NCBI GenBank assembly: GCA_001871595.1
Contig: MNVH01000018.1
Coordinates: 1 to 48,284, forward strand
Length of the DNA: 48,284 nt
Direction: 5' to 3'
From: Candidatus Micrarchaeota archaeon CG1_02_55_22
Lineage (GTDB): Archaea; Micrarchaeota; Micrarchaeia; Norongarragalinales; UBA97
Shown here: one piece after another, positions 3,997 through 34,742 of the stretch
How positions within the stretch are numbered: position 1 is the first letter of the stretch
Layout of the letters: each line of letters begins with the position of its first letter
Translations under genes and position numbers: made by a program
The notes under the pieces: model-generated
Databases searched by the model: none
What the model saw: the letters and a program-made list of their open reading frames with translations, nothing else
Told to the model about the DNA's origin: nothing

Positions 3997-4043
3997 AGTG
4001 GATAAAAGGCTTGCGGAGGCGGACTGCCGGAACGATGGTGGTA

Positions 4044-6260
4044 TTATTTTCGTTCGGCGACTTCTTTTTCTAGTCGTTCGGCGAATTCTGCGAGTTTCAC
4101 GTCTTTCTCTACCTTGCCGTCGCGCGTCCTTATTGATACGGTGCCGTTTTGCTCTTCTTGTACGCCGATTACTAGCGTGTACGGGATTTTGTGGAGCTGG
4201 CTGTTTCGGATGCGTGATTCGAGCGTGCTGCGCGAGTCCTCTACCGATGCCCGCAAGCCGTGTTTTTTCAGTGTTTCTAGGACTTTTTCTGTGTAGGCGT
4301 CTTGGTCTTGCGTCATTGGTAATATTAGTGCTTGTTTGGGCGCGAGCCACGCGGGGAATTCCCCGGCATAGTGTTCGATGAGTACTCCGAGGAAGCGTTC
4401 GAAAGAGCCGAGGACGACGCGGTGCAACATGACGGGGCGTTTGCGTTTGCCGTCGGCCGCCTCGTAGTATAAGTCGAATTTTTCTGGCATCTGGAAGTCT
4501 AGTTGAATCGTTCCGCACTGCCACTTGCGTCCTATTGCATCGGAGAGCTTGAAGTCGAGCTTGGGCCCATAGAAAGCTCCGTCGCCCTCGTTGATTTCGT
4601 ACTTTACCTTAGCAGTGTTAAGCGCTTTCTTGAGCGTGTCTTCGGCCTTGTCCCACATTTCTTTGGAGCCCATTGCCTTTTCCGGCCTTGTTGAGAGTTC
4701 GACTTCGTACTTGAAGCCGAAAGTCTTGTAGAAGCGGTCGAAGAGCTTTATTAGTTGTATTACTTCGCCCTCGATTTGTTCTTCGGTGACGAACAAGTGT
4801 GCGTCGTCCTGCGTGAAGGCTCGCACGCGGAATAATCCTGATAGTACTCCGGAGAGTTCGTGGCGGTGTACTAGGCCCATTTCAGCGATTTTGAGCGGGA
4901 GTTCTCGGTAGCTGTGCACGCCGTTCTTGTACACGAGTATTGCGCCGGGGCAGTTCATGGGCTTTACTGCGTAAGGTTTAGAGTCGATTTGCGTGAAGTA
5001 CATGTTTTCCTTGTAGTGGTCCCAGTGACCGCTTTGGCGCCAGAGGGATTCGTTTAATATGATTGGCGTCTTTATCTCGAGGTATCCTTCCTTTTCGTGT
5101 TCCTCGCGCCAGTACTTTTCTATCGCGTTGCGCAGTATCATTCCGTTCGGGTGGTAGAACGGCATTCCCGGTGCCTCTTGTTGTACTGAGAAGAGGTCGA
5201 GCTGTTGGCCGAGTTTGCGGTGGTCGCGGCGCTCGGCTTCAACCGCCAGTTTCTCGTACTCTGTTTGTTGTGCTAGCGTCTTGAATGCGCGGGCGTAGAT
5301 GCGCTGGAGTGATTTTGCGCCTTCCTTTCCGGCTAGGTACGCGCCGCCGTGCGTTTGTACGAGTACGGATTGGATTGATTTGGTTAACGCTTCCACCGAG
5401 CCGAGCGAGAGCATGGCGTACGCGCCGTCGGAAATAATCTTGGGTTTGCTAATCTTTGATGCGAGGAGTGCTTGGAACGCTTCGCCCTTGGCCTCGAACT
5501 CTTTCACGAGCGCCTTTGATGATTCTTCCTTCTCCGAAAGCTTGGTTCCCGACTCGATTGTTTCGGATATTGTTTTAGTTATTTCCGCGAGCTCTTTCTG
5601 GCCTATTGATTGGCATTCGAAGTCAGCGTAGAATCCGTCTTGGGAGAGCGTTACTTCGACGAGCCTGCCGCCCAGAACGCTTCTGACGGCTTTGGCTAGG
5701 ATGAATGCGCCCGTGCGCTGGATTTTCTCGTGTTCCTTGCCCGCTTTAGTGTTCTCTATTTTTTTGGCTGCGGCGAGGGCGAATTCTTCGAGAACGTTGC
5801 CCGCGTCTTGTTTGGGCGCCTTCTTTTCCGCTAGGGTCTCCGCGTTGATTGTCTTGCTTAGTTCGCTTAACGGGTGGCCCTTGCACTTGAGCTCGAACGC
5901 CTTGTACCAGCCGAACGGGCTTTTTTGTGCGGTAGGTGCGAACGCGCGGACTTCGTCGAGGAGTGAGTTGAGCGTTGATACGGCTTCGCCGGGTGGGGCG
6001 AGGTTGCTTGACAAGTGGGCGTACGGATACAAGAGAACGTTTTGCGCTTTTACTTCGTCAAAATTCTTCTTGATTTCTTGCGCGGTGCGCTTGGTTACGG
6101 CGTCGTTGTCTCCTTGCTCGACGCTGCAGAAAACCACTAGGCAGTTCTCCATGCGTTTCTCTTTGCCTTTTTCTTCCGGGGCTATTTCTTCGGCTGCCTT
6201 GAACGCTTTCTGGCGCGCTGAATAGTTAACGTAGTCGACGTGCAATTCCAAGATTCTCAT
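4044..6260 (-). CDS. thrS: Threonyl-tRNA synthetase, archaeal editing domain fused to a bacterial-type core
   Basis: Charges tRNA-Thr. It has 738 aa, longer than usual for archaeal enzymes. Residues 1-145 are the archaeal D-aminoacyl deacylase-like editing domain with the expected active-site residues (His82, Tyr119, Lys120, Glu133 in PYAHLSS, FGWYKAF and KGHPLSEL). Residues about 175-325 resemble the bacterial N2 editing domain (DGFYADFE, then GAYLAGKEG...LQRIYARAF), but its HxxxH is absent (RTGAF at 182-186) and so are the later Cys/His residues. Residues 340-738 are a bacterial-type class II core with zinc ligands Cys437, His488 and His613, and an anticodon-binding domain. SD AGGTG precedes the ATG. 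The domain mixture is what I see; its evolutionary origin is inference. Confidence 0.95.
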   Translation of the reverse strand: MRILELHVDYVNYSARQKAFKAAEEIAPEEKGKEKRMENCLVVFCSVEQGDNDAVTKRTAQEIKKNFDEVKAQNVLLYPYAHLSSNLAPPGEAVSTLNSLLDEVRAFAPTAQKSPFGWYKAFELKCKGHPLSELSKTINAETLAEKKAPKQDAGNVLEEFALAAAKKIENTKAGKEHEKIQRTGAFILAKAVRSVLGGRLVEVTLSQDGFYADFECQSIGQKELAEITKTISETIESGTKLSEKEESSKALVKEFEAKGEAFQALLASKISKPKIISDGAYAMLSLGSVEALTKSIQSVLVQTHGGAYLAGKEGAKSLQRIYARAFKTLAQQTEYEKLAVEAERRDHRKLGQQLDLFSVQQEAPGMPFYHPNGMILRNAIEKYWREEHEKEGYLEIKTPIILNESLWRQSGHWDHYKENMYFTQIDSKPYAVKPMNCPGAILVYKNGVHSYRELPLKIAEMGLVHRHELSGVLSGLFRVRAFTQDDAHLFVTEEQIEGEVIQLIKLFDRFYKTFGFKYEVELSTRPEKAMGSKEMWDKAEDTLKKALNTAKVKYEINEGDGAFYGPKLDFKLSDAIGRKWQCGTIQLDFQMPEKFDLYYEAADGKRKRPVMLHRVVLGSFERFLGVLIEHYAGEFPAWLAPKQALILPMTQDQDAYTEKVLETLKKHGLRASVEDSRSTLESRIRNSQLHKIPYTLVIGVQEEQNGTVSIRTRDGKVEKDVKLAEFAERLEKEVAERK

Positions 6261-16681: not shown

Positions 16682-16816
16682 ATGAATACAGTTATTGATT
16701 ACTTGATGGTCGTGGTAGATTACCTAGTGCTAATCGTGTGGAACCCGGCAATAGATGTGGAGAACGTCGTTCTCGCCCTGCTAGCGATATTGGCGTTCCT
16801 CTCTTTCGCCAACTAG
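16682..16816 (+). CDS. Membrane microprotein, 44 aa
   Basis: A short frame, ATG 16682 to TAG 16814-16816, encoding two hydrophobic helices: VIDYLMVVVDYLVLIVW and VVLALLAILAFLSFA, separated by a short acidic turn (NPAIDVEN). A TATA-like CTTAAAAAAA (about 16631-16640) lies 40-50 nt upstream, and a purine-rich GGTGTCGG lies just before the ATG. It ends 5 nt before the convergent end of the membrane-protein operon. The composition is strongly membrane-like, which random short frames rarely show. Confidence 0.5.
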   Translation: MNTVIDYLMVVVDYLVLIVWNPAIDVENVVLALLAILAFLSFAN

Positions 16817-16821
16817 CGCGT

Positions 16822-17112
16822 CTATTTAGCGAGTAGGACTTGCCTTCCCGAGCCGATAACCATTCCGCGGTGGTCGTACATCTGCCAGTAATAGATTGAG
16901 CCTGCGAAAGCCACGGCGGCGAGCAAGGGCTGCACAAAGAGGAAGTAAATGCCTACTAGTGCCAGCAATACGCAGTATGCGCGGTAGCGGATGCGTTGCT
17001 TCCAGAACGGGTAGTACGTCTTGATGTACGCGTACCTGTTGTTCATCTTCAGGAATGGGCGCGTCGCGTCGGTAACGACGGTCGTCGAACGAATGTCAGG
17101 GTATTGTGCCAT
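16822..17112 (-). CDS. Small membrane protein A of the six-gene cluster (96 aa)
   Basis: Last gene of the minus-strand cluster. Its soluble N-terminus is followed by RYAYIKTYYPFWKQRIRYR, then two closely spaced hydrophobic helices (AYCVLLALVGIYFLF, LLAAVAFAGSIYYW) and a C-terminal GRQVLLAK. It is clearly related to the next gene upstream: both share R[YW]xYxxxYxPFW, IRYRxY and PLLxxxAFAG. A strong GGAGGTG precedes the ATG. Function unknown. Confidence 0.82.
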   Translation of the reverse strand: MAQYPDIRSTTVVTDATRPFLKMNNRYAYIKTYYPFWKQRIRYRAYCVLLALVGIYFLFVQPLLAAVAFAGSIYYWQMYDHRGMVIGSGRQVLLAK

Positions 17113-17161
17113 TTTATTCCACCTCCAATTTCTTTGTGTCTTGTGCTTACTCCTTGCGTTA

Positions 17162-17446
17162 CTAATTCAGCTGTATCAGGCGCCTCTTGCTCGACGCCAC
17201 GCCCGTATAGAACGGTGACATGCGGTAGAAGTACATTGCTCCGGCGAACGCGAGCACGGACAAGAGCGGCAGGGTGAAGAGCAAGAAAATGCCGGCAATG
17301 CCTAGCGCCAGTGCGTAGGTGCGGTAGCGGATGCCTTGCAGCCAAAAGGGCTGGTAACGCATGAAGTAGTCCCAGCGCTTTCCTTGTGCGAGCAGGGGCG
17401 CTCCCTTCTCGACCGTAATGGTTTGCCTTCCGCTTATGTTTGACAT
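17162..17446 (-). CDS. Small membrane protein B of the six-gene cluster (94 aa)
   Basis: Paralogue of protein A: KRWDYFMRYQPFWLQGIRYR followed by two membrane helices (LALGIAGIFLLFTLP, LLSVLAFAGAMYFYR) and a C-terminus KRRLIQLN. AAGGTGAAAG is 4 nt before the ATG and abuts the stop of gene C (11 nt between genes). About 50 nt separate it from gene A, the widest gap in the cluster. Function unknown. Confidence 0.82.
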   Translation of the reverse strand: MSNISGRQTITVEKGAPLLAQGKRWDYFMRYQPFWLQGIRYRTYALALGIAGIFLLFTLPLLSVLAFAGAMYFYRMSPFYTGVASSKRRLIQLN

Positions 17447-17457
17447 TTTCTTTCACC

Positions 17458-17865
17458 TTAAGCCGTGTGGATGAGCGGCCTTCCGCCGTACCACTTGACT
17501 GCCCACGCGTAGTTGACGACGCGGTCGCTCCAGTACTTTCCTGTAAGGAACGCGAATACTGCCGCTATGTAGTGGTTAACCCAGAAGAATGTTACTATTG
17601 TGAGCACTAGGCACACTACGAAGTAGAATGCTGCCTTGTAGACCGAGGCGGCGTTGCCTTCCTTGGTGTTGGGTGCGCTGAAGTAGCTGTTGAGGAAATC
17701 TTTACGGCTCATCCAGTCCGCGGCACGGATTGGCAGTCCGTCTCCCATCTTTTCGCCCGTATCGCCGATGGGCATGAATACCGACATCTGTTCCGGCGAG
17801 GGCTTCGCTGTGTCGGCGAACTTGAGGTCTTTCGCCTGCCTGCGGAGTTGCGTTATGGTCGTCAT
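17458..17865 (-). CDS. Membrane protein C of the six-gene cluster (135 aa)
   Basis: A hydrophilic N-terminal ~75 residues (MTTITQLRRQAKDLKFADT; MSVFMPIGDTGEKMGDGLP) precede two hydrophobic helices (AAFYFVVCLVLTIVTFFW, IAAVFAFLTGKYW) and a C-terminus with GGRPLIH. The plan matches the other cluster proteins, with a larger cytoplasmic head. The ATG at 17865 is chosen because TAGGTG, overlapping the stop of gene D, lies 8 nt upstream; an in-frame upstream extension would run into gene D. Confidence 0.78.
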   Translation of the reverse strand: MTTITQLRRQAKDLKFADTAKPSPEQMSVFMPIGDTGEKMGDGLPIRAADWMSRKDFLNSYFSAPNTKEGNAASVYKAAFYFVVCLVLTIVTFFWVNHYIAAVFAFLTGKYWSDRVVNYAWAVKWYGGRPLIHTA

Positions 17866-17876
17866 TCTATTTACAC

Positions 17877-18107
17877 CTATATTCCGAACTTGCCTGACGC
17901 GAGCGCCAGGACTAGTATTACTATGATGAGCACGTCGATTGCCTTGTCGGGAATGCCCATGCACTTCTGGTTGAGCGCTTTATTGAAGTCGTACTCGGGG
18001 CCGAACATGGGTTTGAATATGCCAACGTCTTCAACGAGGGACATGAGCTGCACTATGGGGTCGATTTCTTCGGCCCTTTTTGAACCAAGTCTCGTGTCGA
18101 AAGCCAT
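17877..18107 (-). CDS. Small membrane protein D of the six-gene cluster (76 aa)
   Basis: The shortest member. A soluble N-terminus (RAEEIDPIVQLMSLVEDVG; FKPMFGPEYDFNKAL) is followed by a single C-terminal membrane helix (AIDVLIIVILVLALASG). Unlike its neighbours it has one membrane segment and no arginine-rich pre-membrane motif. AGGTGAAC follows directly on the stop of gene E. No family recognised; it could be a regulatory or pilin-like subunit (speculative). Confidence 0.75.
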   Translation of the reverse strand: MAFDTRLGSKRAEEIDPIVQLMSLVEDVGIFKPMFGPEYDFNKALNQKCMGIPDKAIDVLIIVILVLALASGKFGI

Positions 18108-18117
18108 TTTTGTTCAC

Positions 18118-18471
18118 CTAGTTTAGCAGTACGAGCGCCCTCGAGCGACCGAACTTCGTTGCGACTCCTTGTCCCCACCACGCGATGTTCTGGTAGCGGC
18201 CTGAAAGCGCGAAGAGCAGCATCGCGCCGAGCGGCACGGAGTTAATGACGAGCAACCCTAGCACGGCGTAGACGAGTGCCATTACCTGAGCTTTCTTGCC
18301 AACCATCCAGAACTCGTAAATGTACTCTTTAAGGTACTCCCAGCGGTTGTCTTGCTTGAACAGTGGGGGCACCTTCGGGTCAAGCTGCAGCGGCATGAAT
18401 GTGGTCTGGTCTACCGGGCCCGTGTTTGGGGAGCCGCCCGCGACAATCTGTTGGTTTATTGTGTTCGCCAT
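18118..18471 (-). CDS. Small membrane protein E of the six-gene cluster (117 aa)
   Basis: Shares the pre-membrane motif with A and B: DNRWEYLKEYIYEFWMVGKK. Two helices follow (MALVYAVLGLLVINSVP, LGAMLLFALSGRY) and then a C-terminus with GRSRALVLLN. The N-terminal ~40 residues are polar (NQQIVAGGSPNTGPVDQ). SD AAGGTAAA lies beside the stop of gene F. Relatedness to A and B is by eye. Confidence 0.8.
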   Translation of the reverse strand: MANTINQQIVAGGSPNTGPVDQTTFMPLQLDPKVPPLFKQDNRWEYLKEYIYEFWMVGKKAQVMALVYAVLGLLVINSVPLGAMLLFALSGRYQNIAWWGQGVATKFGRSRALVLLN

Positions 18472-18482
18472 TTTGATTTACC

Positions 18483-18845
18483 TTATTTGGTCCACAAGAG
18501 GTCACGCCTCTTGAGAATCATGTTTATCGTGAAGTTCGCTTTGATGTGTTCTCCGTACGCCCACGCCGCGGCGATTGCGCCCGCGATGGTGAGGTAGATG
18601 CTGATTCTAAGCCAGAGTACCGCGATGAGCGCGAGAACGATTGAGAGCAAGCGGTAGAAGTGCCAGTTGCGCCAGAGCTTGATGTTTTCGTCCAAGAATT
18701 TTTGACGGGTCGTCACCTCGATTACTGCCTTGTTGGCCGATTTGGTGGGCAGAAACATGGGGATGTGCTCCCACTTCTTTGCCTCCGGCTCGTCGGCCTT
18801 GACTATGCCGAGTTTCTTGAATTGCGTCGGAGTAACATTCTGCAT
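18483..18845 (-). CDS. Small membrane protein F, first gene of the cluster (about 120 aa)
   Basis: Promoter-proximal gene. A polar N-terminus (MQNVTPTQFKKLGIVKADE) leads to ENIKLWRNWHFYRLL, two hydrophobic helices (IVLALIAVLWLRISIYL, AGAIAAAWAYG) and KRRDLLWTK at the C-terminus. The ATG at 18845 is preferred; a GTG at 18854 in frame is possible. A TATA-like TTTATATATAA (18885-18895, minus strand) lies about 30-40 nt upstream. Its C-terminal [KR]R..L pattern recurs in genes A, B and E. Confidence 0.8.
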   Translation of the reverse strand: MQNVTPTQFKKLGIVKADEPEAKKWEHIPMFLPTKSANKAVIEVTTRQKFLDENIKLWRNWHFYRLLSIVLALIAVLWLRISIYLTIAGAIAAAWAYGEHIKANFTINMILKRRDLLWTK

Positions 18846-18881
18846 ATTTACCACTTTGTCGTTGTAACATTAGTGTAGATG

Positions 18882-18895
18882 ATTATATATAAACT
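18882..18895. promoter_or_regulatory. Near-symmetric TATA box serving both directions
   Basis: ATTATATATAAAC can be read as a TATA box on both strands. It lies about 30-40 nt before the start of membrane protein F on the minus strand. It lies upstream of the plus-strand membrane protein at 18972, so the two transcription units may be linked through one core promoter. Confidence 0.5.
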
Positions 18896-18971
18896 TGCCG
18901 GTAGTAACACAGTGTACGCTGGTTGCCGTAATGGCCGTAAGCAATTAAAGGGGGTGGCGTGTTATGGTTGC

Positions 18972-19541
18972 GTGGCCACCAAAAACCGCCCTCGCGCCCG
19001 CCGAGAGTACCTTTCCTCATTCCACCAGCCCGTGGCAGTCTTGGCCGTTCTAGCCGGTCTGCTCGTGCTTTCCGGCGTCTTTTACGCCTTCAGCGGCCTT
19101 GCTACAACCGGGTTTGCAGCCTCTCGTGGTTCGACTGGCGGGGCAAGCGTGGACGGGGTACTAGAATCCGCTAACGTGCCGTTGGCATTACTTTCAAGCG
19201 CCGACGGCGACTACGCTGCCCTTGACTCTTCTTCGCCGCTTCAATTCTCCTTCTCCGTGCCAGCGAGCAAGCTCCTCTTGACGTCCCGACGGTTCTCCCT
19301 AGAATTCTCGGCTCTTTTACAGGGTACGGGGACGGCTTCAGTCGAAGTCTTTACCGGTGACGGTTTCAAGACCGCTTGCGCTGGAGCCGTTTTATCCGAA
19401 TCCTTGGCCGAAGCCTCTTGCGATCTTACTCCCTTGCTTTCGCCTGACGGCTCGATTCCGTCCCTCGTTACGGTGAGGCTCTCAGTCACCCGTGTTGCGC
19501 GCGTTGACCGGGCTGCGCTTAAAGCAATAATAATCAAATGA
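18972..19541 (+). CDS. Single-pass membrane protein with extracytoplasmic Ser/Ala-rich domain
   Basis: A GTG start at 18972 is chosen because AAAGGGGGTGG lies ~15 nt upstream; the ATG at 18879 overlaps the TATA box and cannot be the start. The product has a basic N-terminus (KNRPRARREY), one membrane helix (VAVLAVLAGLLVLSGVFYAF) and ~140 residues of beta-rich sequence with two Cys residues in TACAGA and ASCDLTP. Topology would be N-in. No domain recognised. It overlaps nnrD by 4 nt (ATGA), so the two are co-translated. Confidence 0.65.
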   Translation: MATKNRPRARREYLSSFHQPVAVLAVLAGLLVLSGVFYAFSGLATTGFAASRGSTGGASVDGVLESANVPLALLSSADGDYAALDSSSPLQFSFSVPASKLLLTSRRFSLEFSALLQGTGTASVEVFTGDGFKTACAGAVLSESLAEASCDLTPLLSPDGSIPSLVTVRLSVTRVARVDRAALKAIIIK

Positions 19542-20418: not shown

Positions 20419-22992
20419 TTACTCCGCGTCCTCGATGCCGTTTTCGGTTACGATGAAGATGCATTCGCCGTCGGGCAGGTTTGGCGAGTCCACGAGTTTT
20501 GCGATGCGGCGCGTTTCCTTGCTGCGACGCAGGTACACGCGGTAGGTGCACAAGTGTCCTAACACGTTTCCTCCAACGGGTATTGTGGGGTCGCCGAAGA
20601 GAATGTCCGGTCGGTCGATGACTTGGTTGGTAACATAGATTGCTAGGTTGAACATGTCGCTCAATCTTTGCAGTACGTGAATGTGTTTGTTGAGCTTCTG
20701 CTGTCGTGCTGCGAGTTCGCCCCGGCCCACGTAATCACCGCGGAACGCTGAGGTGAGCGAGTCCACGATAACCAGTTTGATGTTGTTCTCGCGGACTAGC
20801 TCTTCAGCCTTTTCAGCGAGAATCGTTTGGTGGTCACTGTTGTAAGCGCGCGCGACGAAAATGTTTTTTAGTACCACGTCGGGGTCAAGTCCTTTGGCAA
20901 CAGCGATTTGTGCTACGCGCTCGGGCCGGAAAGTCGCTTCCGTGTCAATGAACAACACGTTGCCGTTCAAGCCACCTTGCTCTGGCGGCAACTGCGCGTT
21001 AACGCATAACTGGAACGCGATTTGCGTGTTGTGCAGCACGGTTGGCATGACGCCACCGACGAAAGTGTGGCCATCGGGCACGACGAAGTCGTACACCGGG
21101 CCGTCGTGTGGAACCCTCGCCGTTTCTGAGACTTTATCCCAGTTTAGTGACGCGATTATCCTTAGTTGTTCGGCCGCCTCGTGGCTTGCCTTTGACCGCG
21201 CGCCAAGCTCTTCCGCGATTGTCGTCGCTATCTCGCTGGCGTGTTCTGGCGGCACGCCGCGCTTGACATAGTTCTGCAAACTGCCTTTAGACAAACCGAG
21301 TTTTTGCGCGAGGCTGTTGAGTGCGAATGGCAGGCTGCAAGCGTATTCCTCGAACTCTTGCGGGCTCATAGCAGGTACAGTGGTGGCGCGTTCCGAAAGC
21401 TCGTCTAGCTGGGCTTCGCCGGATTGGAAGAAAGATATTGCTTTAGCCATCGTCTCCGGGCCAATGCTTTGGTTTGGCGTCATTGCGAAGAGGCCGTAGA
21501 GCGTTGTAGAGCCGTTGTTCTTTTTGCCGTACTCTTTTGCGTGCCTGCCGCGGTTGCCGCCCAGTGTTTGTTTATAATACTTTTTGAGAAGTTTGTTTAT
21601 TGCTTGAGGGTAGCCGTGCGCTGAAGCAGTAGTGCTGCCGTTCCACGCCTTGAGCTTGAACGGGAGGCTGCCTATCTTTTCGCGGTCGAATCCGGTGACG
21701 CTGATGCGGACGTACTGTTTGCCTGCCGAGCGCGTGGCGCGCCGCGTGGCCGCGATACCGACTGTTGAGAGGAGGTAGGATAGCTCTCTGGCCAGACGCG
21801 TGCTTTTAGTGGTGGCGGAAACGCCTGATTCCGTCAGGCAGCCGTCACCCTCTAAATACCCAGCAAGGAACGATTTTGCCGCGCTTTTGCCGGCGGTGAA
21901 CACTACGGCCGGAACGAACTTGGTTGCCGAATTTGTTTTTTCCAAGCCTTCGAGGAGTGGGTGGGCGGCGTTCTTGATTAGTATGGTGTAAACGGTTCTC
22001 TTGCCTGGCAAGTTTCTTTCTCGCACCGTTGGCTCGAAGTCGAACCGCGCTTTGAGGTAGTTTGAGAGCCAGTCACGCAACACTGTGTCGGACGTGCTTA
22101 TCGAGCAGGGGTTGGCAGTGCCTTCGGCGGCGAAGAGGCCGAGGAAGTATGCATCGTCGTCGCTCACCGTACCCGTTTGCGGGATTGGGATGGAGTTGGG
22201 CGTAGCAATGCTGTCGCCAGACTGGATTTCTGCCGCGGGCTTCCACTGTAGCCCGTCTTCGTTGGCGACGAGGAGCTTGTGCGGCAAGGTAATGCGAAGC
22301 GAGCGCCCGCGCTTGGTCGTTAAATGCACTAGCTCGTCGGCGTGGCCCTTGTAGATTGCTGCGGGAACGGCTTGCGTGATGCCGGCGTCGTTGAACGCGA
22401 AGACCTTGACGCACGGTGCCTTTACTACGGTGCCGCCGTCGAACGCCTCTTCGCCGAACTTTGCGGCGTATTTATCGTAAATGTGTGACATGGGTTCAAG
22501 GTGGAACTCCTCGTCGTTCGTGTACGCCGCGTGCTCCTCCGGCGCAACGCACTTGCTGCTACCATACTTGCCAAAGCACTCGGTTATTGCTTGGGTTTCA
22601 ACGCCGCCTCCGATGAGGTTGTCGAGCTCTACCGAGCCCGTGCTTATCCTGCCGATGACTTTTCTTTTTTCGAGTATGATGTCGCCGGTCTCGAAACCCA
22701 TTTCCATGGCTTCGCGCGCGGCCGCAATAATCTTTTCAGCAGTAGCTTCACCAATGCTAGCAACTTCAGCTAGTTCGACGGCCATGCTTGTAGCAAGTTT
22801 CTCGAAAGAATCGTAGCCCGCTGCTTTCAGTTTTTTAGCGGTAGTTTCACCAACGCCGGGAATCTCTTCAATAGACTCGATTTTTTTCTTCCGGCTGGCC
22901 TTCTTTTCTATCTTTACTACGGCGTCGTTGCCGTTAACTACTTCGAACTCCTTGTCTGCAACAGCTTCTTGCGAAGCATTTTCGCTTGCCAT
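20419..22992 (-). CDS. radA: DNA recombinase RadA interrupted by an intein
   Basis: The archaeal RecA/Rad51 homologue that builds filaments for homologous recombination. The N-extein has the helix-hairpin-helix domain (EEIPGVGETTAKKLKAAGY) and ends at the Walker A motif (GKYGSSK). The C-extein resumes with TQIAFQLC and continues through the Walker B region (IKLVIVDSLTS), L1/L2 and the ending LVDSPNLPDGE. Removing the 508-aa intein leaves about 350 aa, the normal size. The Walker A glycine before Lys is Ser here (GSSKT). The ATG at 22992 is preferred; a GTG three codons earlier (23001) is possible. Confidence 0.95.
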   Translation of the reverse strand: MASENASQEAVADKEFEVVNGNDAVVKIEKKASRKKKIESIEEIPGVGETTAKKLKAAGYDSFEKLATSMAVELAEVASIGEATAEKIIAAAREAMEMGFETGDIILEKRKVIGRISTGSVELDNLIGGGVETQAITECFGKYGSSKCVAPEEHAAYTNDEEFHLEPMSHIYDKYAAKFGEEAFDGGTVVKAPCVKVFAFNDAGITQAVPAAIYKGHADELVHLTTKRGRSLRITLPHKLLVANEDGLQWKPAAEIQSGDSIATPNSIPIPQTGTVSDDDAYFLGLFAAEGTANPCSISTSDTVLRDWLSNYLKARFDFEPTVRERNLPGKRTVYTILIKNAAHPLLEGLEKTNSATKFVPAVVFTAGKSAAKSFLAGYLEGDGCLTESGVSATTKSTRLARELSYLLSTVGIAATRRATRSAGKQYVRISVTGFDREKIGSLPFKLKAWNGSTTASAHGYPQAINKLLKKYYKQTLGGNRGRHAKEYGKKNNGSTTLYGLFAMTPNQSIGPETMAKAISFFQSGEAQLDELSERATTVPAMSPQEFEEYACSLPFALNSLAQKLGLSKGSLQNYVKRGVPPEHASEIATTIAEELGARSKASHEAAEQLRIIASLNWDKVSETARVPHDGPVYDFVVPDGHTFVGGVMPTVLHNTQIAFQLCVNAQLPPEQGGLNGNVLFIDTEATFRPERVAQIAVAKGLDPDVVLKNIFVARAYNSDHQTILAEKAEELVRENNIKLVIVDSLTSAFRGDYVGRGELAARQQKLNKHIHVLQRLSDMFNLAIYVTNQVIDRPDILFGDPTIPVGGNVLGHLCTYRVYLRRSKETRRIAKLVDSPNLPDGECIFIVTENGIEDAE
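21028..22551 (-). other. Intein in RadA Walker A, with LAGLIDADG endonuclease and C-terminal HTH-like segment
   Basis: Coding segment of 508 codons. It starts with Cys (CVAPEEHAAYTNDEEF), has a block B histidine in RITLPHKLLV, two LAGLIDADG helices (YFLGLFAAEGTA and SFLAGYLEGDGCL) and ends with VYDFVVPDGHTFVGG...VLHN before Thr. A helix-turn-helix-like LAQKLGLSKGSLQNYVKRG precedes the last block. From memory, its N-terminal block resembles the mini-intein of Pyrococcus horikoshii RadA at the same site, but here the endonuclease domain is present. Splicing residues look intact. Confidence 0.92.
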
Positions 22993-23078
22993 TCTAACCA
23001 CGTCCGCCGGGGACGCCTACAGTCAGGCGCCGTGTATCCAGCCAAACACTTATACTCGCCGGGTTTAAAAAGCGCGGC

Positions 23079-24783: not shown

Positions 24784-27700
24784 ATGCACGTAAGCGAAAT
24801 CCATTTACGCAACTTCAAGAGCTTTGGCAGCTCCAAGGTCAAGCTCTCGCCGGGCTTCAACGCAATAGTGGGCCCAAACGGCAGCGGCAAGTGCTTGAGG
24901 GGTGATTCCCGCATCCTTCTAACCGACGGAACTAGGCTTTCAATAAAAGAGCTGGTTGATGGTGCGCTGTCTTCTAGTACGGATAATCAGGTTCTAGGTG
25001 ATGGAATATTAACGCTTCAGAACTCGTCCGGAGCTGCAGTGTTCTCGCTGAATCCGTTGACGGGTAAGATTGAGTCAAGCCGCGTGCAGGCGTTCGTCAA
25101 GCGCAAGAGTCCTGAGAGTCTGGCGGAAATAGTGACTCGGAGTGGTCGCAGGATAGTCACTACAACGTATCATCCGCTTATTACGATTCGTGACGCGGAA
25201 ATCGCGGCGGTCAAGGCCGAAGACTTGCGAGTAGGTGAATTTGTCGCCCTGCCGAGGGGTTTGCGGCTTCCTGAAAGCAAAATCAATCTTCCCTTGGAAT
25301 TAGCTCGTCGTTTGACTCGCCTTTACTTAGGGGATTCGTGTGTTGAACTCCGTAGGTTAATTGCCGAGAAGAAGCTTAATTCCGAAAAGACTTGGCGGCA
25401 GGTCAGCGTTGATTCCGGCGTGATTGAGACGGAACTACGTGGACTGGCTTCAGGTCAAAGCATTCCTTTACACAGCGCTTTTCGCTTAACCCAATGGCTC
25501 GGGCTCTCTGAACTTGAAGCTTCGAAAATCCTTTCGCGGGTAAAAGCCAAGAACCAGCATATCGTTACTGCCATTCCGTTGACTTTGGACTGCGCGCTCG
25601 CCAAGTTCCTCGGTTACTTGATTTCTGAGGGCCGTCTAGTAAAGAACGAAGCGTTCTTTTTCAATGACTCGCCGGAAATACGCGACGACTTCAGTGCATC
25701 GTGCAAGGCTGCATTCGGACTCTCGCCAACGCCGTGTTTGAATGGTAAAAAGACGTTCCTCGTGTTACCGTCTGCTGCTGTTGCCGCGCTTCTTGAACAT
25801 GTTTTTGGCATGCCGCCTTATTCACACTCGCGGGACAAACGCATTCCCCCGCAATTATTGAGTGCTCCGTTGAACTCGGTAATGGCTTTCCTTTCGGCAC
25901 TCTACGATGGCGACGGCAGCGTTTCACAGCCTGGAAGTTCGAAAGTATGTGTTGAATATGCTACTGCAAGCAGGGCGCTGGCTGACGACCTTGCAACGCT
26001 TCTCCTGCGTTTCCAAATACATTCAAGAATATCTGCCGGAGGAAAATTCGCGTCGAACACCGTCGCAAAGACGCGCCGGACTTATTACCGTGTTAATATT
26101 TACGGGCTTGAAGATGCTGAAAAGCTGTCAGGCGCAATTCATTCAAGTATCCTCAAGCGTCCAGCTATCCTGCGTGTGCTCGAAAAACATTCCGGAGTCA
26201 AGCGTGGAACCGCCGTTGACGTGATTCCAAATTCAAATGGTTTTATCAACTCTGCCCTCAGGAAAGCTGGTTACACTAGCCGACGACTCAAGGGCGAGGC
26301 GCCCGCACGAATACGCGCTTACTTTGAGGATAGGTGCCTACCGACGCGCAAAGGCCTTGTCGAGGTGGCAACGTTGGTCAATAAACAGCACGCTGCCCAG
26401 TTGTCAGTCTTGGCTGAAAGCGAAGTTTTTTGGGATGAAATCGCACAAATTCGCGCCGTGCCCGGAGAGGAATGGGTTTACGATTTATGCGTCGAAGGTA
26501 ACCACAACTTTTTGGCGGAAGGCGTCTTCGCGCATAATAGCAACATTATCGACGCGCTAGTCTTCGCTTTCGGTGAGTCCTCGCTCAAAAGCATGCGTGT
26601 CAAGAAGAGTACCGACCTAATTTTATCCAACAACAAGGTCGCCGAGGTGTCGCTGCACTTGACCGACGGCAAGGCCAACAGCACTGTGGGCCGCATGGTG
26701 AACCGCGACGGCAAGACCAAGTACTCGATGGACGGCAAGCGCACCAAGAAGTATGGTATAGAGAACTTCCTCACGCACCACGCCCTTTCCTTGACGAACG
26801 TCATCAAGCAAGGCGAAGTCCAGCGAATAGTAGAGATAAACTCGAAGGAAAGACGCCACTTGATTGACGTTGTCGCCAATGTTGCTGAGTACGAGGACAA
26901 GAAGCGCGAGGCGCTCAACGAGCTCGCCCGCGTGGAAGAGCACTTGCGCGAGGCTAGTACTGTGTTGGGCGAGCGCGAAGGCTACTTGAGGGAGTTGGAG
27001 AACGAGCGCTCGAACGCGTTGAAGTACCGCGAACTCAAAAGCGAGCTCGACGCGATAAAGGCAACGCTGGCCTCGCTTGAAGTCGCTTCCAAGACGAGAG
27101 AATTCGAGGCACTAATTAATGCTGACGTTGATTACCAGAACAAGCTCGAGGCGCTCGACGCCAAGGTAAGGGAAATCGAGGCCGCGATTCTTGCGAAGAA
27201 CGGCGAGAAGGACGAGATAAACAAGCAAATCTTTGCCCGCGGCCAAGGCGCTGAGGCCGACTTGCAGCGCGAAATCGATTCGTTGACGAACGCTGTTGAG
27301 AATGCCCGCAATGCAATCGCCGAGAAGCAGGCGCAGCTCGCGGTGCTGGCTAAGAAGATTCACGAGCAGAAGCTCGACAAGCAGCGTGCCGGCGACGAGG
27401 TCAAGGGCGCGGACAAGCAGAAAATCGATTTGGAGAAAGAGCTCGCCGAAACTAATCTCGTGCTTGGCGAGAAACGGGCGGGGTACGAGTCGATTATCGG
27501 CGCGTCAGACAAGTTTTCCCAGAAGTTTCACGAGTCCCGCGCCATGGTCGAGCGCGCTGGAGACGACATGCTGCAGGCAAAACAACGTCTCTCCGAGTTG
27601 CAGGCAAGCGTTTCTTCGAGCGAGGAAATAATCCGGTTAAAGCAGAAAGAAATCGAGCGCTTGAAGGACGGCAATACCGCGGATTATTCGCCGAAACTCG

Positions 27701-29883
27701 CCCAGCTTTCAAGCGAGGAAAAGACTTCCAAGGTAGAGTTGGCCAACGCACAAAAACAGCTTGACGCCTTGTTCGAGCGCGAAAAGCGTTTGAACGAACA
27801 GGTGCCCGTGCTCGAAGACCTCATACTTGCGGCGCGCGAGAAAGTAGTTGAAATCTCGGGCCGTGTGCGTATGGCCGCCGACTCGCCCGCCAGCAGCAGC
27901 GTGGAAGCCGTGCTGGCACTGAAGGAGAAGACTAGTGGTATTTACGGTACGGTGGAAGAACTCGTTTCTTATCCGTCAAAGTACGCCGTGCCCATCCAGA
28001 CTGCGCTCGGCCCCCGTGCATCGTTCGTTGTCGTTGACTCGGTGAAGACTGCTTCAAAGGCGATAGATTTTCTCAAGTCGAAGAAGCTCGGCCGCGTGTC
28101 TTTTATTCCGCTCGACAAGATTCGTTCGTCTTCCATAAGCGCCGAGGACCGCAAGCACGCGAGTGGCAAGGGTTCGCACGGTTTCGTGCTCGACCACTTA
28201 GAGTACGATGCGGAGCACGCCGCCGCAATAGAGTTCGTCTGTGGTAGCACGATTATCATGGAATCGTTGGCCGAAGCAGAGCCCATTATCGGCAAGATTC
28301 GTTTGACGACGATGGACGGCGAGCTCGTCGAAGGCAGTGGCCTCATTTCCGGCGGGTCTTTCAAGGTAAAGGTTAACCTCGCCGGTGAGCGAAAACAGTT
28401 AGAAGAGTGGGAACGCAAGCATGACGTTGCGAAGGAAGAGAAGGACAAGCTCTTTGCCGATTTAACCGTGTTGCGTGAAGAGACGAGTGAAGCGAGAAAA
28501 CGCAAGGCCGACGCCGAACTCGCCCTCAGGAGCGTTGAAATCCAGTTATCACACTTGTCAGAGCAGGAGCGTTCCGAGGCGGCCAAGCAATCCAATGTCA
28601 AGGGCGCGGTTGCCAGTCTTGAAAGCGAGATTGTTGAGGCGCGCAAGCAAATCGAGGCGGGCGACACCGAACGGCGCGAGCTCATCCGCCGCCTGTCGGA
28701 GTTGAATTTACAGATTCTTGAGGCCAAGCAGTTCCTCGACGTCGAGAAAGAGGCGAATTACGGCAACAAGGTAAAAGAGCTCGAGCGCGCCATTGGTGAC
28801 TTGAAGGTGCGTGTTGCCGAGCAGGACAATTCGTTGAAGACTGCGGTGACGCAGTACACGCTTTACTCTAAACAGTTCGACTCTGCGTCGAAAGCTCTCG
28901 CCGAACTCGAAGTCGAGGACGCGGCGTGCCGCGAGGCCGTTGATGCAGCGGACAAGACCATTAAGGATAGCCAGGTTTTGTTGAAGGTAAAGCTCGTCGA
29001 ACAAAAACAGTTGTCGGGCAAGTTCATGGACCTCATCAACAAGCGCGAGAAGCTCGACGGAGAGATCCACAAGCTCGCCAACGAGTCTGGCAAGATGGGT
29101 TTCGAGAAGGAGAAGCTCGACCGCCAGAAGGGCGACTCGCGCGTCAGGCGCGCCGTCATCGAGGAACAGCTGCGCAACGCGAAAGTCGCGCTCGAAGAGC
29201 ACGCCGGCGTCGCCGTCATCGAAGGCAAGACTCTCGAGGACAAGCCCGAACTCCTCGCCCGCAGCAAAATTCTTTCCGGCAGCATGGGCGAGCTTGGCAA
29301 CGTGAATTTGCGTGCAATCGAGTTGTACGACAAGCGCCTCGCCGAGTACAAGGACCAACAGGAAAAAGTCCAGCGCCTCTTCAACGAGAAGGAAGCAGTC
29401 ATAGGAATAATAACAGAAATTGAGGGCAAGAAGATAGCCACCTTCATGAACACGTTCAACGTCATCAACGAGAACTTCAAACGCGTCTTCTCCCAGATCT
29501 TCCAAGGCGACGGGCACCTCTTCCTTGAAAACCCTGAGAAACCGTTCGACGCTGGACTAACTATAGAGGTCAAGCTATCAAACAAGGAAGTCAAGTACCT
29601 TGAACTGATGAGCGGCGGCGAGAAAAGCTTGATTGCATTGATTTTCCTCTTCGCCATTCAGAGCGTTAACCCGTCCGGAATATACATTCTCGACGAGGCC
29701 GACGCCGCGCTCGACGCCGAAAACTCGCGAAAGCTCGCCCAACTCGTCAAAGTGCTTAGCGCGGACACGCAGTTCATCGTCGTCTCGCACAACCAGAACG
29801 TGTACAAGAACGCCGACACGCTCGTCGGAGTGGCGATGACGCGCGAAGGCAGCCGGCTGGTTGAAGTCAAGCTAACCGAGTGA
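24784..29883 (+). CDS. smc: SMC chromosome-segregation ATPase interrupted by an intein
   Basis: Structural maintenance of chromosomes protein, 1699 aa as encoded and about 1150 after splicing. The N-terminal head FKSFGSSKVKLSPG leads to Walker A GPNGSGK|S, split by the intein. Long coiled coils flank a hinge around nt 27930-28370 (SGIYGTVEELVSYPSKYA; TTMDGELVEGSGLISGG). The C-terminal head has the signature LMSGGEKSLIAL, Walker B IYILDEADAALD and the switch IVVSHNQ. Preceded by GGGGAG 6 nt before the ATG and TATTAAAACG near 24732. ScpA/ScpB partners are not in the window. Confidence 0.97.
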   Translation: MHVSEIHLRNFKSFGSSKVKLSPGFNAIVGPNGSGKCLRGDSRILLTDGTRLSIKELVDGALSSSTDNQVLGDGILTLQNSSGAAVFSLNPLTGKIESSRVQAFVKRKSPESLAEIVTRSGRRIVTTTYHPLITIRDAEIAAVKAEDLRVGEFVALPRGLRLPESKINLPLELARRLTRLYLGDSCVELRRLIAEKKLNSEKTWRQVSVDSGVIETELRGLASGQSIPLHSAFRLTQWLGLSELEASKILSRVKAKNQHIVTAIPLTLDCALAKFLGYLISEGRLVKNEAFFFNDSPEIRDDFSASCKAAFGLSPTPCLNGKKTFLVLPSAAVAALLEHVFGMPPYSHSRDKRIPPQLLSAPLNSVMAFLSALYDGDGSVSQPGSSKVCVEYATASRALADDLATLLLRFQIHSRISAGGKFASNTVAKTRRTYYRVNIYGLEDAEKLSGAIHSSILKRPAILRVLEKHSGVKRGTAVDVIPNSNGFINSALRKAGYTSRRLKGEAPARIRAYFEDRCLPTRKGLVEVATLVNKQHAAQLSVLAESEVFWDEIAQIRAVPGEEWVYDLCVEGNHNFLAEGVFAHNSNIIDALVFAFGESSLKSMRVKKSTDLILSNNKVAEVSLHLTDGKANSTVGRMVNRDGKTKYSMDGKRTKKYGIENFLTHHALSLTNVIKQGEVQRIVEINSKERRHLIDVVANVAEYEDKKREALNELARVEEHLREASTVLGEREGYLRELENERSNALKYRELKSELDAIKATLASLEVASKTREFEALINADVDYQNKLEALDAKVREIEAAILAKNGEKDEINKQIFARGQGAEADLQREIDSLTNAVENARNAIAEKQAQLAVLAKKIHEQKLDKQRAGDEVKGADKQKIDLEKELAETNLVLGEKRAGYESIIGASDKFSQKFHESRAMVERAGDDMLQAKQRLSELQASVSSSEEIIRLKQKEIERLKDGNTADYSPKLAQLSSEEKTSKVELANAQKQLDALFEREKRLNEQVPVLEDLILAAREKVVEISGRVRMAADSPASSSVEAVLALKEKTSGIYGTVEELVSYPSKYAVPIQTALGPRASFVVVDSVKTASKAIDFLKSKKLGRVSFIPLDKIRSSSISAEDRKHASGKGSHGFVLDHLEYDAEHAAAIEFVCGSTIIMESLAEAEPIIGKIRLTTMDGELVEGSGLISGGSFKVKVNLAGERKQLEEWERKHDVAKEEKDKLFADLTVLREETSEARKRKADAELALRSVEIQLSHLSEQERSEAAKQSNVKGAVASLESEIVEARKQIEAGDTERRELIRRLSELNLQILEAKQFLDVEKEANYGNKVKELERAIGDLKVRVAEQDNSLKTAVTQYTLYSKQFDSASKALAELEVEDAACREAVDAADKTIKDSQVLLKVKLVEQKQLSGKFMDLINKREKLDGEIHKLANESGKMGFEKEKLDRQKGDSRVRRAVIEEQLRNAKVALEEHAGVAVIEGKTLEDKPELLARSKILSGSMGELGNVNLRAIELYDKRLAEYKDQQEKVQRLFNEKEAVIGIITEIEGKKIATFMNTFNVINENFKRVFSQIFQGDGHLFLENPEKPFDAGLTIEVKLSNKEVKYLELMSGGEKSLIALIFLFAIQSVNPSGIYILDEADAALDAENSRKLAQLVKVLSADTQFIVVSHNQNVYKNADTLVGVAMTREGSRLVEVKLTE
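24892..26538 (+). other. Intein in SMC Walker A, LAGLIDADG type
   Basis: A 549-codon segment from Cys (CLRGDSRILLTDG) to the final His-Asn (NHNFLAEGVFAHN), followed by Ser as +1 residue. The block B histidine is in TTTYHPLITI. LAGLIDADG helices are KFLGYLISEGRL and FLSALYDGDGSV. Splicing residues are intact and the flanking exteins join as GPNGSGK-SNIIDAL, the normal SMC P-loop. Confidence 0.94.
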
Positions 29884-31571: not shown

Positions 31572-34500
31572 ATGGAGGTTCAAACAAAACACTTGCCCGA
31601 CGAGTCTTTAGCCTCGCGCTTCGACGACTTCTTCGAGAACCTTTTGCGTGATGACATAAACAAGCTACTCAGTTCGTATCCACAGACGAAGAGCCTTGAA
31701 GTCGATTTCCATTTGCTTGAACGGTTCGACCACCACCTCGCAGACAACGTATTATTGTATCCTGATGAGTACATTTCTGCAGCCGAGAACGCGCTTGCGT
31801 CAAGGCGCGAGGCAACGGCTCTCGGCGACGAGTTCAAGCCCTACGTGCGTTTCTATAACTTGCCGGCAACGAGCCAAGTCGAGGTATTGAATCTTGGCGC
31901 TGAGCACTTGGACAAGTTCATCACGCTTGAAGGCGTTGCCTCGTCGATAAGCGAGATAAAGCCGCGTATGACTATTGCGGTGTGGCAGTGCAATGCTTGC
32001 CAGCGCAAGTACCATTTGCCCGTCGGCAAGGTCGAGCCCCTCCAGCCCCCACAATTTTGCAGCGCTCCCGATTGCGGCGGCGCTTCCAAGTTTACGCTTT
32101 TAGAAAAGGGCAGCAATTTCACGGACATGCAGAGCCTTGGCATGCAGGATCCTGTTGAGAAGATGCACGGCAACATGCCTACCGTGCACGCCGAGTTGTG
32201 GTTGGAGGAAGACTTGACTAACACGGTTGCGCCGGGCGACAAGGTCCTTGTGACTGGCGTGCTCAGGCTCAAGCCCATAAACGAGGGTAAGGTCAAGAAG
32301 AGCATTTACCAGAAGTTCGTCGACGTGAACAGCATCCGGAAAATCGAGATTGATTTCGAGGAACTCAAGATCACGAAAGAGGAAGAAAAGCAGCTCGCCG
32401 AGCTAGCCCGCGACCCCAAGCTCTTCGATAAAATCGTTGCCAGCGTAGCGCCCAGCGTGTTCGGCTACAACGAGCTCAAGCAAGCCATTGCGCTCCAGTT
32501 ATTCGGCGGCACGCACGGCAAGGTATTGCCCGACGGAGAAGTCATCCGTTCAGATACGCATATTTTGATGATTGGAGACCCCGGTTGCCTTGTCGCCGGC
32601 GAACGGGTATTCTTGGGCAACGGAGCCGTAGCTCGAATCGATAGCATGGGCTCAACACATCTTCAAGCGCTCAACCAGCAAGTCTTGACCGGTCAAGGCC
32701 ATTCGCGCGCAATTGCAACTTGTTTCCACACTTACAAAAACCAACCCATACTAGAAATCGTGACCGAGTCGGGAAAATCAATCAAGGGAACATACAACCA
32801 TCCCTTGCGGGCAGTTGAAGGAATGACTTCTAAGTGGAAGCGCCTCGACGAAATACGGGCTGGCGATCGCCTCGCTACGGTTACGGGCGTGGAGTGTTCG
32901 ATTACTGCGCACGTGAAGACGGGTTGGACGCACATGCTTAGGCACTACGGTCCCCGAGCGAAATCCCGCCTCCCCAAAGAGCTCGACGCCGAACTCGCAG
33001 GATTGCTTGGTTACGTTGCCGGCGACGGCTGGGTAACTGCCACGCGCGTCGCAATGAACGTCAATCCAGCCGAACGCGATTTGATTCCGAAGCTTTCAAG
33101 CATAATCTCGAATCAGTTTGGTCTGGTGCCCAAGCTCGCCGAACGAAGGGCGGAGGGCAAGCAACCCATATTCATCTTGGAATTCCACGACGTTGACTCG
33201 GCCGCGTGCCTCTCCTTCCTGCGCGTCAAACGCGTTCCCGATCTCGTGTTCCGCTCGGGAAACAAGGTTGCCGCTAGCTATTTGTCGTGGCTGTTCGAGG
33301 CCGACGGATGCGTTTTCTCTAAAGGCCGTGGCAAGCGAGCAGTACAACTAAAGTCGAGCGATATAGAGTTTTTGCGCGACGTACAAAACCTGCTCTTAAG
33401 GTTCAGCATCCACTCGCGCATAAACGAACGAAACCTGACAATACGCCGCGCCGAGTCAATCCGCAAGTTCGCGAACGCGATAGGCTTCCAATCAGCCAAG
33501 AAGAAAACGCGAATGGAAAAGTTGGTCGCCGATTGCAGTAATTTGCACCACGAACGCGGCGGGCAACGAAGCGAGCGCGTCGTCTCTGTGCGTCCAGCCG
33601 GCGTTGCCGACGTGTACGACATCGAAGTGCCTAAAGGCCACCGTTTCATCGCCAACGGAATAATTTCGCACAATACTGCGAAATCCACCATGCTCGAGTA
33701 CGTCGCGCGCCTCGCGCCCAAGTGCATAATCGTGAGCGGTGGCGGAGCCAGTGGCGTTGGGCTTACCGCTTCGGCAGAAAAAAATGAAATCAGCGGGGGA
33801 TGGGTGCTCAAGGCGGGAGCAATGGTTCTAGCGAACGGCGGCTTGGTCGGTATAGATGAAATGGATAAGATGAAGGAAGAGGACCGCGCCGCAATCCACC
33901 AGGCAATGGAGCAACAAAAAATCTCTGTCGCCAAGGCCGGTATCGTCACCGAATTCCAATCCAAGACTGCCGTGCTCGCCGCAGCCAACCCTAAGCAAGG
34001 TCGCTTCGACCCCAACACGCCAATAGCATCACAGTTCGCTCTTTCGCCCACGTTGCTCTCGCGTTTCGACCTCATCTTTGCAATGAAGGATACCTTGGAC
34101 GAGAAACGCGACCGCGGTCTTGCAGAACATATTTTGGAGGGGCACCGTTACGCGGGTACGCGTGACAAGGGCGAGAGCCCCATAGTGCCGGTCATAGAGG
34201 CTGATTTGCTGCGCAAGTATATTGCTTACGCGCGCCGTACCGTGGCGCCAGAATTGACGCGCGAGGCGAGCGACAAAATCCGCGATTACTACGTTGAGTT
34301 GCGCCGGCAAGGAAAAGAACAGAACACTTTCACGGTTACGGCGCGTCAGATTGAGGGCCTTATCCGTATCTCTGAAGCGCACGCCAAGATGCGTCTCTCG
34401 CGTTACGTTGAGTTTCAGGACGCGCAGAAGTCGATTGACTTGGCCGACTTTGTCTTGCACGAAATCTATTTCGACCGCGAAACGGGCAGAATTGACAGCG

Positions 34501-34742
34501 ATATTGTTAATCTGGGCCAGGCGAAGAGCAAGCTCGACAAGATAAGGAATGTCTTGGGTATAATTGGTAACCTTGAAAAGGAGGTCGACCTCGTCGCGAT
34601 TGATGACGTGGTGCGCGAGGCGAGTTCTTTCGGCCTCGACGAAGCCTACACGCGCCGCCTCATCGACGAATTAAAGAGGCAAGGCGACTTGTACGAGCCC
34701 AAGCCCGGCCACATCAAGCAAGCGCGGGCGCGCGAGTGGTAA
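31572..34742 (+). CDS. mcm: MCM replicative helicase interrupted by an intein
   Basis: The hexameric 3'-5' helicase of the archaeal replisome; 1056 aa encoded, about 693 after splicing, the usual size. N-terminal domain with a zinc motif (CNAC at 140-143; FCSAPDC further on). AAA+ domain: Walker A GDPG|TAKST split by the intein, Walker B GLVGIDEMDKM, sensor 1 AAANPKQGRF and arginine finger LLSRFDLIF. A winged helix closes the protein. TATA AGTTATATGC (about 31526-31535), and GGGAGAAAA just before the ATG. Confidence 0.97.
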   Translation: MEVQTKHLPDESLASRFDDFFENLLRDDINKLLSSYPQTKSLEVDFHLLERFDHHLADNVLLYPDEYISAAENALASRREATALGDEFKPYVRFYNLPATSQVEVLNLGAEHLDKFITLEGVASSISEIKPRMTIAVWQCNACQRKYHLPVGKVEPLQPPQFCSAPDCGGASKFTLLEKGSNFTDMQSLGMQDPVEKMHGNMPTVHAELWLEEDLTNTVAPGDKVLVTGVLRLKPINEGKVKKSIYQKFVDVNSIRKIEIDFEELKITKEEEKQLAELARDPKLFDKIVASVAPSVFGYNELKQAIALQLFGGTHGKVLPDGEVIRSDTHILMIGDPGCLVAGERVFLGNGAVARIDSMGSTHLQALNQQVLTGQGHSRAIATCFHTYKNQPILEIVTESGKSIKGTYNHPLRAVEGMTSKWKRLDEIRAGDRLATVTGVECSITAHVKTGWTHMLRHYGPRAKSRLPKELDAELAGLLGYVAGDGWVTATRVAMNVNPAERDLIPKLSSIISNQFGLVPKLAERRAEGKQPIFILEFHDVDSAACLSFLRVKRVPDLVFRSGNKVAASYLSWLFEADGCVFSKGRGKRAVQLKSSDIEFLRDVQNLLLRFSIHSRINERNLTIRRAESIRKFANAIGFQSAKKKTRMEKLVADCSNLHHERGGQRSERVVSVRPAGVADVYDIEVPKGHRFIANGIISHNTAKSTMLEYVARLAPKCIIVSGGGASGVGLTASAEKNEISGGWVLKAGAMVLANGGLVGIDEMDKMKEEDRAAIHQAMEQQKISVAKAGIVTEFQSKTAVLAAANPKQGRFDPNTPIASQFALSPTLLSRFDLIFAMKDTLDEKRDRGLAEHILEGHRYAGTRDKGESPIVPVIEADLLRKYIAYARRTVAPELTREASDKIRDYYVELRRQGKEQNTFTVTARQIEGLIRISEAHAKMRLSRYVEFQDAQKSIDLADFVLHEIYFDRETGRIDSDIVNLGQAKSKLDKIRNVLGIIGNLEKEVDLVAIDDVVREASSFGLDEAYTRRLIDELKRQGDLYEPKPGHIKQARAREW
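32586..33674 (+). other. Intein in MCM Walker A, LAGLIDADG type
   Basis: A 363-codon segment (residues 339-701) starting with Cys (CLVAGERVFLGNG) and ending VYDIEVPKGHRFIANG...ISHN, followed by Thr. The block B histidine is in GTYNHPLRA. LAGLIDADG helices are LAGLLGYVAGDGWV and SYLSWLFEADGCVF. The joined exteins give GDPGTAKST, a normal MCM P-loop. Confidence 0.94.

Follow-up and report, generated by a model that had tools for sequence, protein, structure and literature searches.

Six small genes on the minus strand of the window (18845-16822, in the order F-E-D-C-B-A) probably encode the subunits of an obligate hetero-oligomeric assembly of the cytoplasmic membrane that is specific to the archaeal order Norongarragalinales and has a single dedicated TATA promoter. 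The window is the whole stretch of DNA that was analysed, i.e. one contig of 48,284 nucleotides from a genome of 1.19 Mb that is 82% complete. In the proposed arrangement the promoter would drive all six genes as one operon. F, E, C and A would each be a hairpin of two helices whose outer turn is tight and uncharged, and the disordered, variable N-terminal head and the basic C-terminal tail would both face the cytosol. D would be a small partner with one transmembrane (TM) helix, and B a recent additional copy of the A type.

F (18483..18845, 120 aa) is the first gene, its start being the ATG at 18845 and not the GTG at 18854. It is followed by E (18118..18471, 117 aa), D (17877..18107, 76 aa), C (17458..17865, 135 aa, with a longer N-terminal head), B (17162..17446, 94 aa) and the last gene, A (16822..17112, 96 aa). 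Orthologue alignments were made for all products (A4 for F, A1 for E, A3 for D, A5 for C, and A2 for B and A). An earlier reading of this DNA, made from the letters alone (the sequence-only reading), had described six minus-strand genes at this place, with Shine-Dalgarno (SD) sequences overlapping or next to the previous stop codon and a wide gap only between B and A. The ORF calls contain all six genes and the description of the spacing holds, the gaps being 11 nt (F-E), 10 nt (E-D), 11 nt (D-C) and 11 nt (C-B) versus 49 nt (B-A). SD-like AAGGT/AGGTG motifs overlap or abut the preceding stop codon (TAAGGT, TAGGTG, TAGGTG, TAAGGTG). The codon adaptation of the operon is ordinary (0.715, as compared to 0.69 for ribosomal proteins), so high abundance of its products is not indicated.

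The distribution of the operon was investigated in 29 genomes of the order and 266 others of the class (295 in total); the phylum sample of 301 genomes was made up of the 29 and 272 others. Genomes beyond the phylum were covered through a peptide-pattern scan, the family libraries and records of phages and plasmids. Of the 29 Norongarragalinales genomes, 26, from six of the seven families of the order, have the unit F-E-D-C-A with its genes in constant order; none of the 266 other class genomes has it, as determined with a profile of 26 E proteins over the 295. The 26 genomes matched by this profile all belong to the order's 29, and a single-sequence search with gene E gave the same tendency (26 out of 60 genomes searched, every one in the same order). 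All eight order genomes with a completeness of 90% or more carry the operon by the E profile, and the three genomes without it (G008, G021 and G025) are each 78-83% complete. In G001, one of the 26, the operon is divided between two contig ends. The A profile matched 27 of the 29 order genomes, the extra one being G008 with a divergent paralogue (H1, see below), and none of the 272 other genomes of the phylum sample. Gene D was found by profile in 25 of the 29 and by eye in G003 (L059 9634-9855). Gene B occurs in four of the five genomes of family f1 and in the f3 genome; it lies between C and A in the window and between D and C in the other f1 genomes with visible context.

All relatives in the named collection are MAGs labelled 'Candidatus Micrarchaeota archaeon', most of them from groundwater. 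The expectation of a DPANN host is borne out. Two of the operon carriers, NC_groundwater_1324_Ag_S-0.2um_56_85 and NC_groundwater_395_Ag_B-0.1um_58_13, were treated among Norongarragalinales by Rao et al. 2025 (PMC12892359), and it is through these two that we assign the order to Norongarragalinales. We note that the window's own genome bin also holds a second operon copy, together with an S-layer gene, on contig G000:C41 (L036, 1-5598). This is probably a contaminant contig and we treat it as such because it is 99.8% identical over its whole 5.6 kb to G017:C32, which is from a genome of another family.

We consider the operon to be more than a chance arrangement since the same genes in the same order are found in 25 further genomes and since close pairs mostly have a dN/dS of 0.04-0.36. 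The values rise to 0.42 in the most diverged pairs (L061/L060 and L048/L050), where dS is near saturation. In other words, the operon genes are under purifying selection. The sequence-only reading had viewed the products as subunits of one membrane assembly and had suggested a survey of gene neighbourhoods as a check. The survey gives a strong, conserved co-occurrence (F-E-D-C-A together in 26 genomes), and with the constant order and the near-universal single copy in the order, the putative assembly is well supported.

In Kyte-Doolittle windows A, B, C, E and F each have one broad hydrophobic region with two adjacent helices, whereas D has a single TM segment near its C terminus. About 2-3 Lys/Arg residues are found in the 18 residues ahead of the hairpin and about 2.4-4.1 in the tail, and the 9-residue turn between the helices carries at most 0.26 charged residues on average. 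The basic flanks and the nearly uncharged turn predict that both ends are inside (N-in/C-in). The single-chain AlphaFold models of E and C consist of a long helical hairpin (H43-75/H80-106 in E, H71-95/H98-128 in C) with a pLDDT of about 97 in the TM part and with disordered stretches in the heads (E 1-24, C 15-34, pLDDT <50); the global pTM is just 0.54 for E and 0.50 for C.

A, B, C, E and F form one family of two-helix membrane hairpins: iterated HMM searches seeded with any of the five recruit all hairpin classes. As such searches may respond to TM composition, profile-profile comparison was done as a check. It gave hhalign probabilities of 98% for A-F, 95% for A-C and 94% for E-C, with alignments that span the TR..(Y/F)L motif and the hairpin. 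D is not part of the family at a significant level (D-A 29%, D-F 11%), and it was rejected as a hairpin homologue. It has one TM segment in most families of the order and, in family f6, a second hydrophobic segment with a basic tail. The sequence-only reading had held several of the six proteins to be related and had described the motif R[YW].Y...Y..FW as common to A, B and E. The relatedness of A, B and E stands, with C and F to be added and D to be left out; the motif is intact in A and B, while E has one extra residue before FW. The C-terminal tails are basic as described, and C has the GGR variant.

The related motifs persist in alignments of 24-30 orthologues. An aromatic-x-Pro motif recurs, and F and C have its P without exception. 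TR..Y(L/F) has an R that does not vary in A/B, F and C, and the C-terminal tail has a near-invariant basic residue. The near-invariant residues of alignments A1-A5 include no Cys, no His and no acid within the membrane. For this reason we lean slightly towards a structural scaffold or pore of the cell envelope, as opposed to an enzyme or redox complex. We are fairly confident that the products would bind one another into a pseudo-symmetric ring or lattice.

Conserved operons can also contain functionally separate proteins, and the products could be membrane-shaping or membrane-anchoring proteins that act largely independently, e.g. in division or lipid organisation, and do not form one stoichiometric complex. 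Hairpins with variable, disordered cytosolic heads would suit shaping or docking, and at locus L052 (G013) an FtsZ-like protein, recognised by eye, is encoded 380 nt upstream of F on the same strand. However, this neighbour is seen in that genome alone, the TM helices of the E and C models are full length and not short wedges, and all five classes are retained jointly, in order and in single copy. We regard this alternative as unlikely and favour the single assembly.

Archaeal energy-converting complexes contain many small TM subunits, and operons of several small one- or two-TM proteins are typical for them. The operon could thus supply a membrane-embedded subcomplex for an enzyme of energy conversion or transport that has its catalytic subunits encoded at other loci, and the order has been characterised as metabolically rich (PMC12892359). 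The lack of Cys, His and membrane acids among the near-invariant residues speaks against it, as do the Pfam and NCBIfam searches, which gave no match, and the fact that no catalytic gene is linked in all loci among the neighbourhoods examined. We give such a subcomplex a small chance, and the scaffold or pore of the envelope is still the reading we prefer.

The separation of the hairpin classes was followed in a tree of 109 hairpins; as this tree is built on few columns and leaves many forks open, it was used for the class separation alone. Five classes are separated with four label changes, and fewer are not possible. E, C and B each come out as a single group (support 77, 89 and 95); two changes fall on F and two on A. 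This separation implies that the duplications predate the families of the order, and the four paralogue classes F, E, C and A thus appear to be older than these families. B (SH-aLRT 95) groups with A (96) and is apparently a lineage-specific, recent extra duplicate of the A type. The earlier suggestion of duplication followed by divergence is in accordance with both the profiles, which give one hairpin family, and the tree, in which the classes are separate.

The promoter lies ahead of F on the minus strand (18885..18909) and consists of TGTTACTACC (18909-18900), GGC-AAG, which is BRE-like, and the TATA box TTTATATAT (18893-18885), which is 48 nt before the start codon of F. It is conspicuous that the pattern TGTTACTACC-NNN-AAG-TTTATAWAT is nearly invariant ahead of F in 25 genomes; in the alignment of the 25 sites many positions reach the full 2 bits and the flanks fall almost to zero. 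When up to one mismatch was allowed, the pattern was found in 25 of the 29 order genomes, at the operon in each, and in one of the 266 other class genomes. G003 has a diverged copy that was read by eye. Matches away from the operon, again with no more than one mismatch, number three within the order, and the idea of a regulon was rejected on these grounds. We read the block as a BRE/TATA promoter with a putative dedicated activator site. The sites of the activator EarA in Methanococcus maripaludis are located directly upstream of the BRE/TATA of one large fla operon (PMC5512572). The likeness to this archaellum promoter is that the activator site would be immediately upstream of BRE/TATA in both; the differences are that the present operon has a single 10-mer, TGTTACTACC, and is unrelated to fla.

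Some further features were seen around the promoter. A 220-codon ORF (18879-19541, plus strand), divergent from F, resembles a membrane-anchored secreted protein and has no Pfam match; its real start is probably further downstream, as the called ATG sits at the TATA box of the promoter. At one f3 locus (L042:9196-9308, plus strand, G006) a 37-codon, highly basic ORF (MKKIVKKSKHKATKHKSK...) lies between the promoter and F, and it was not seen at other loci. A one-mismatch copy of the promoter is found on contig C58 of the window's own genome (L122:1155-1192, minus strand) ahead of a 100-codon hydrophobic ORF and near other ORFs for small membrane proteins. The contaminant contig aside, this is the sole other near-copy of the motif in that genome.

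Another one-mismatch copy, located about 20 nt before a gene named H1 in G028, led to a two-gene hairpin cluster, H1-H2, that is restricted to the order and occurs in G028 (L127:1849-2773), G008 (L128:743-1643), G025 (L134:2846-3848) and G016 (L135, near 4000-4870). Gene H1 is a relative of A, with an hhalign probability of 92% and a tblastn match to an A protein at E 2e-4, and the cluster may be a simpler or alternative version of the operon. After H1-H2, G025 and G028 have one more small ORF with two TM segments. The H2 protein of L127 has a sub-threshold Pfam match over the hairpin to the 8xMP octameric membrane protein (PF24838, 18.5 bits, cut-off 30). Going by the family name alone, the architecture would be comparable in that small TM proteins assemble as an octamer; on the other hand the match is below the curated cut-off, it concerns one sequence, and F, E, C, A and B have no such match.

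The sequence-only reading had not recognised the family, and the profile and fold searches likewise matched no known one. The six window proteins gave chance scores and nothing else against Pfam, NCBIfam, PHROGs and PADLOC. Orthologues searched singly (Pfam for A1-A5, NCBIfam for A4) gave sub-threshold families only; these were taken as chance because nearly every family was matched by a single member, and the match of two F orthologues to squalene synthase (E 0.031) was treated likewise. Profile searches of the PDB, those with the A, D and F profiles included, gave no credible relative. The matches of the A profile were mostly fusion constructs with BRIL (cytochrome b562), which look like helix-composition matches, and they were rejected. 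Foldseek gave nothing with E <0.3 for the models of proteins E and C against the PDB or for that of E against viral structures (BFVD). By tblastn, protein E had no match in 50,697 phage records or in viral_contigs, and among 72,556 plasmid records there was none for protein A. An origin from a virus or plasmid was rejected on these results and the chance PHROGs scores, and so was an anti-phage defence system, for which PADLOC gave just a chance match to Csn2 (E 0.02, 12 bits).

The sequence-only reading had also raised VirB3/VirB2-like secretion parts or a Ced-like DNA-exchange channel. The operon could accordingly be a highly diverged T4SS- or Ced-like channel for DNA or protein, its hairpins being VirB3-like or VirB2/CedA1-like and its ATPase encoded elsewhere. 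In the Ced/Ted system of Thermoproteota (CedA, CedA1, CedA2, CedB), CedA1 and CedA2 are small archaeal proteins with two predicted TM segments each, in complex with CedA (PMC9905601), and in this respect they are similar to the hairpins described here. The best sub-threshold NCBIfam match of F, IcmV of type IVB secretion (NF038219), points in the same direction (E 0.0044, 17.1 bits). However, that score is far under the cut-off of 100 bits, it was obtained for one of the 26 F orthologues, and other T4BSS components were not seen nearby, so that an IcmV identity is not supported. No ATPase of the VirB4/HerA type (CedB/TedB) and no VirB6-like channel (CedA/TedA) recurs in the flanks of the loci, which were followed for up to 9 kb, and no homology to the CedA1/TedC pilin was found with PDB profile searches (A, D and F) or Foldseek (modelled E and C). 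Ced is described as having one VirB2-like pilin and the non-conserved CedA2, whereas four hairpin paralogues, or five with B, are present here. A conjugative pilin also does not fit the predicted topology with its long cytosolic heads, basic tails on both sides and uncharged tight turn. The VirB or Ced identity is thus not upheld and such a channel is very unlikely. We call the operon one of a wholly new kind, as no known kind was matched in any library searched; its products may be a very diverged member of a known system.

The commonest neighbours of the operon are a CTP synthase gene downstream (12 loci), a RadA-like gene (9) and an S-layer gene (9, one of which is on the probable contaminant contig). 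The S-layer gene (PF05124) stands divergently beside F in eight of the nine operon-bearing genomes of family f4, and in the ninth (G019) the contig ends there. Outside f4 it is located elsewhere, though PF05124 is present in 27 of the 29 genomes; in the window's own genome it is on another contig. From the divergent arrangement in the one family we infer that the assembly might work together with the S-layer, which is rather doubtful: the link is no more than suggestive, as the gene is not adjacent in other families or in the window's own genome. An envelope function, as scaffold or pore and possibly with the S-layer, is our preferred guess. Further along the window, a RadA-like gene (20419-23001, minus strand), an SMC-like gene (24784-29883, plus strand) and an MCM-like gene (31572-34742, plus strand) each seemingly contain an intein, judged by eye from the ORF translations. 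A 44-codon hydrophobic ORF (16682-16816, plus strand), with a GGTAGTGGTG stretch just upstream, is convergent with gene A and has no homologue in the other operon loci.

The common gene order, the conserved promoter and the absence of the unit from everything else searched make one undescribed membrane structure probable. More tentatively, and with slightly less than even confidence, we suggest a previously undescribed multi-subunit machine of four to five ancient paralogous hairpins and a small partner that arose in the ancestor of Norongarragalinales, has since been kept as a single-copy operon, and is controlled by its own dedicated regulator via a site that occurs about once per genome. 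The promoter block of about 25 bp is a nearly invariant archaeal upstream element, order-wide and essentially confined to one locus, and it offers a handle for finding the regulator. The module is directly testable because of the strict co-occurrence of its genes, its four paralogue classes and a promoter specific to the operon. The operon is a membrane module that defines an order, and this Micrarchaeota order, which is known almost exclusively from metagenomes, has been proposed as potentially host-independent, having become less host-dependent. As no described family matches the products of the operon, it points to cell-envelope or membrane biology of DPANN archaea that is still unexplored.
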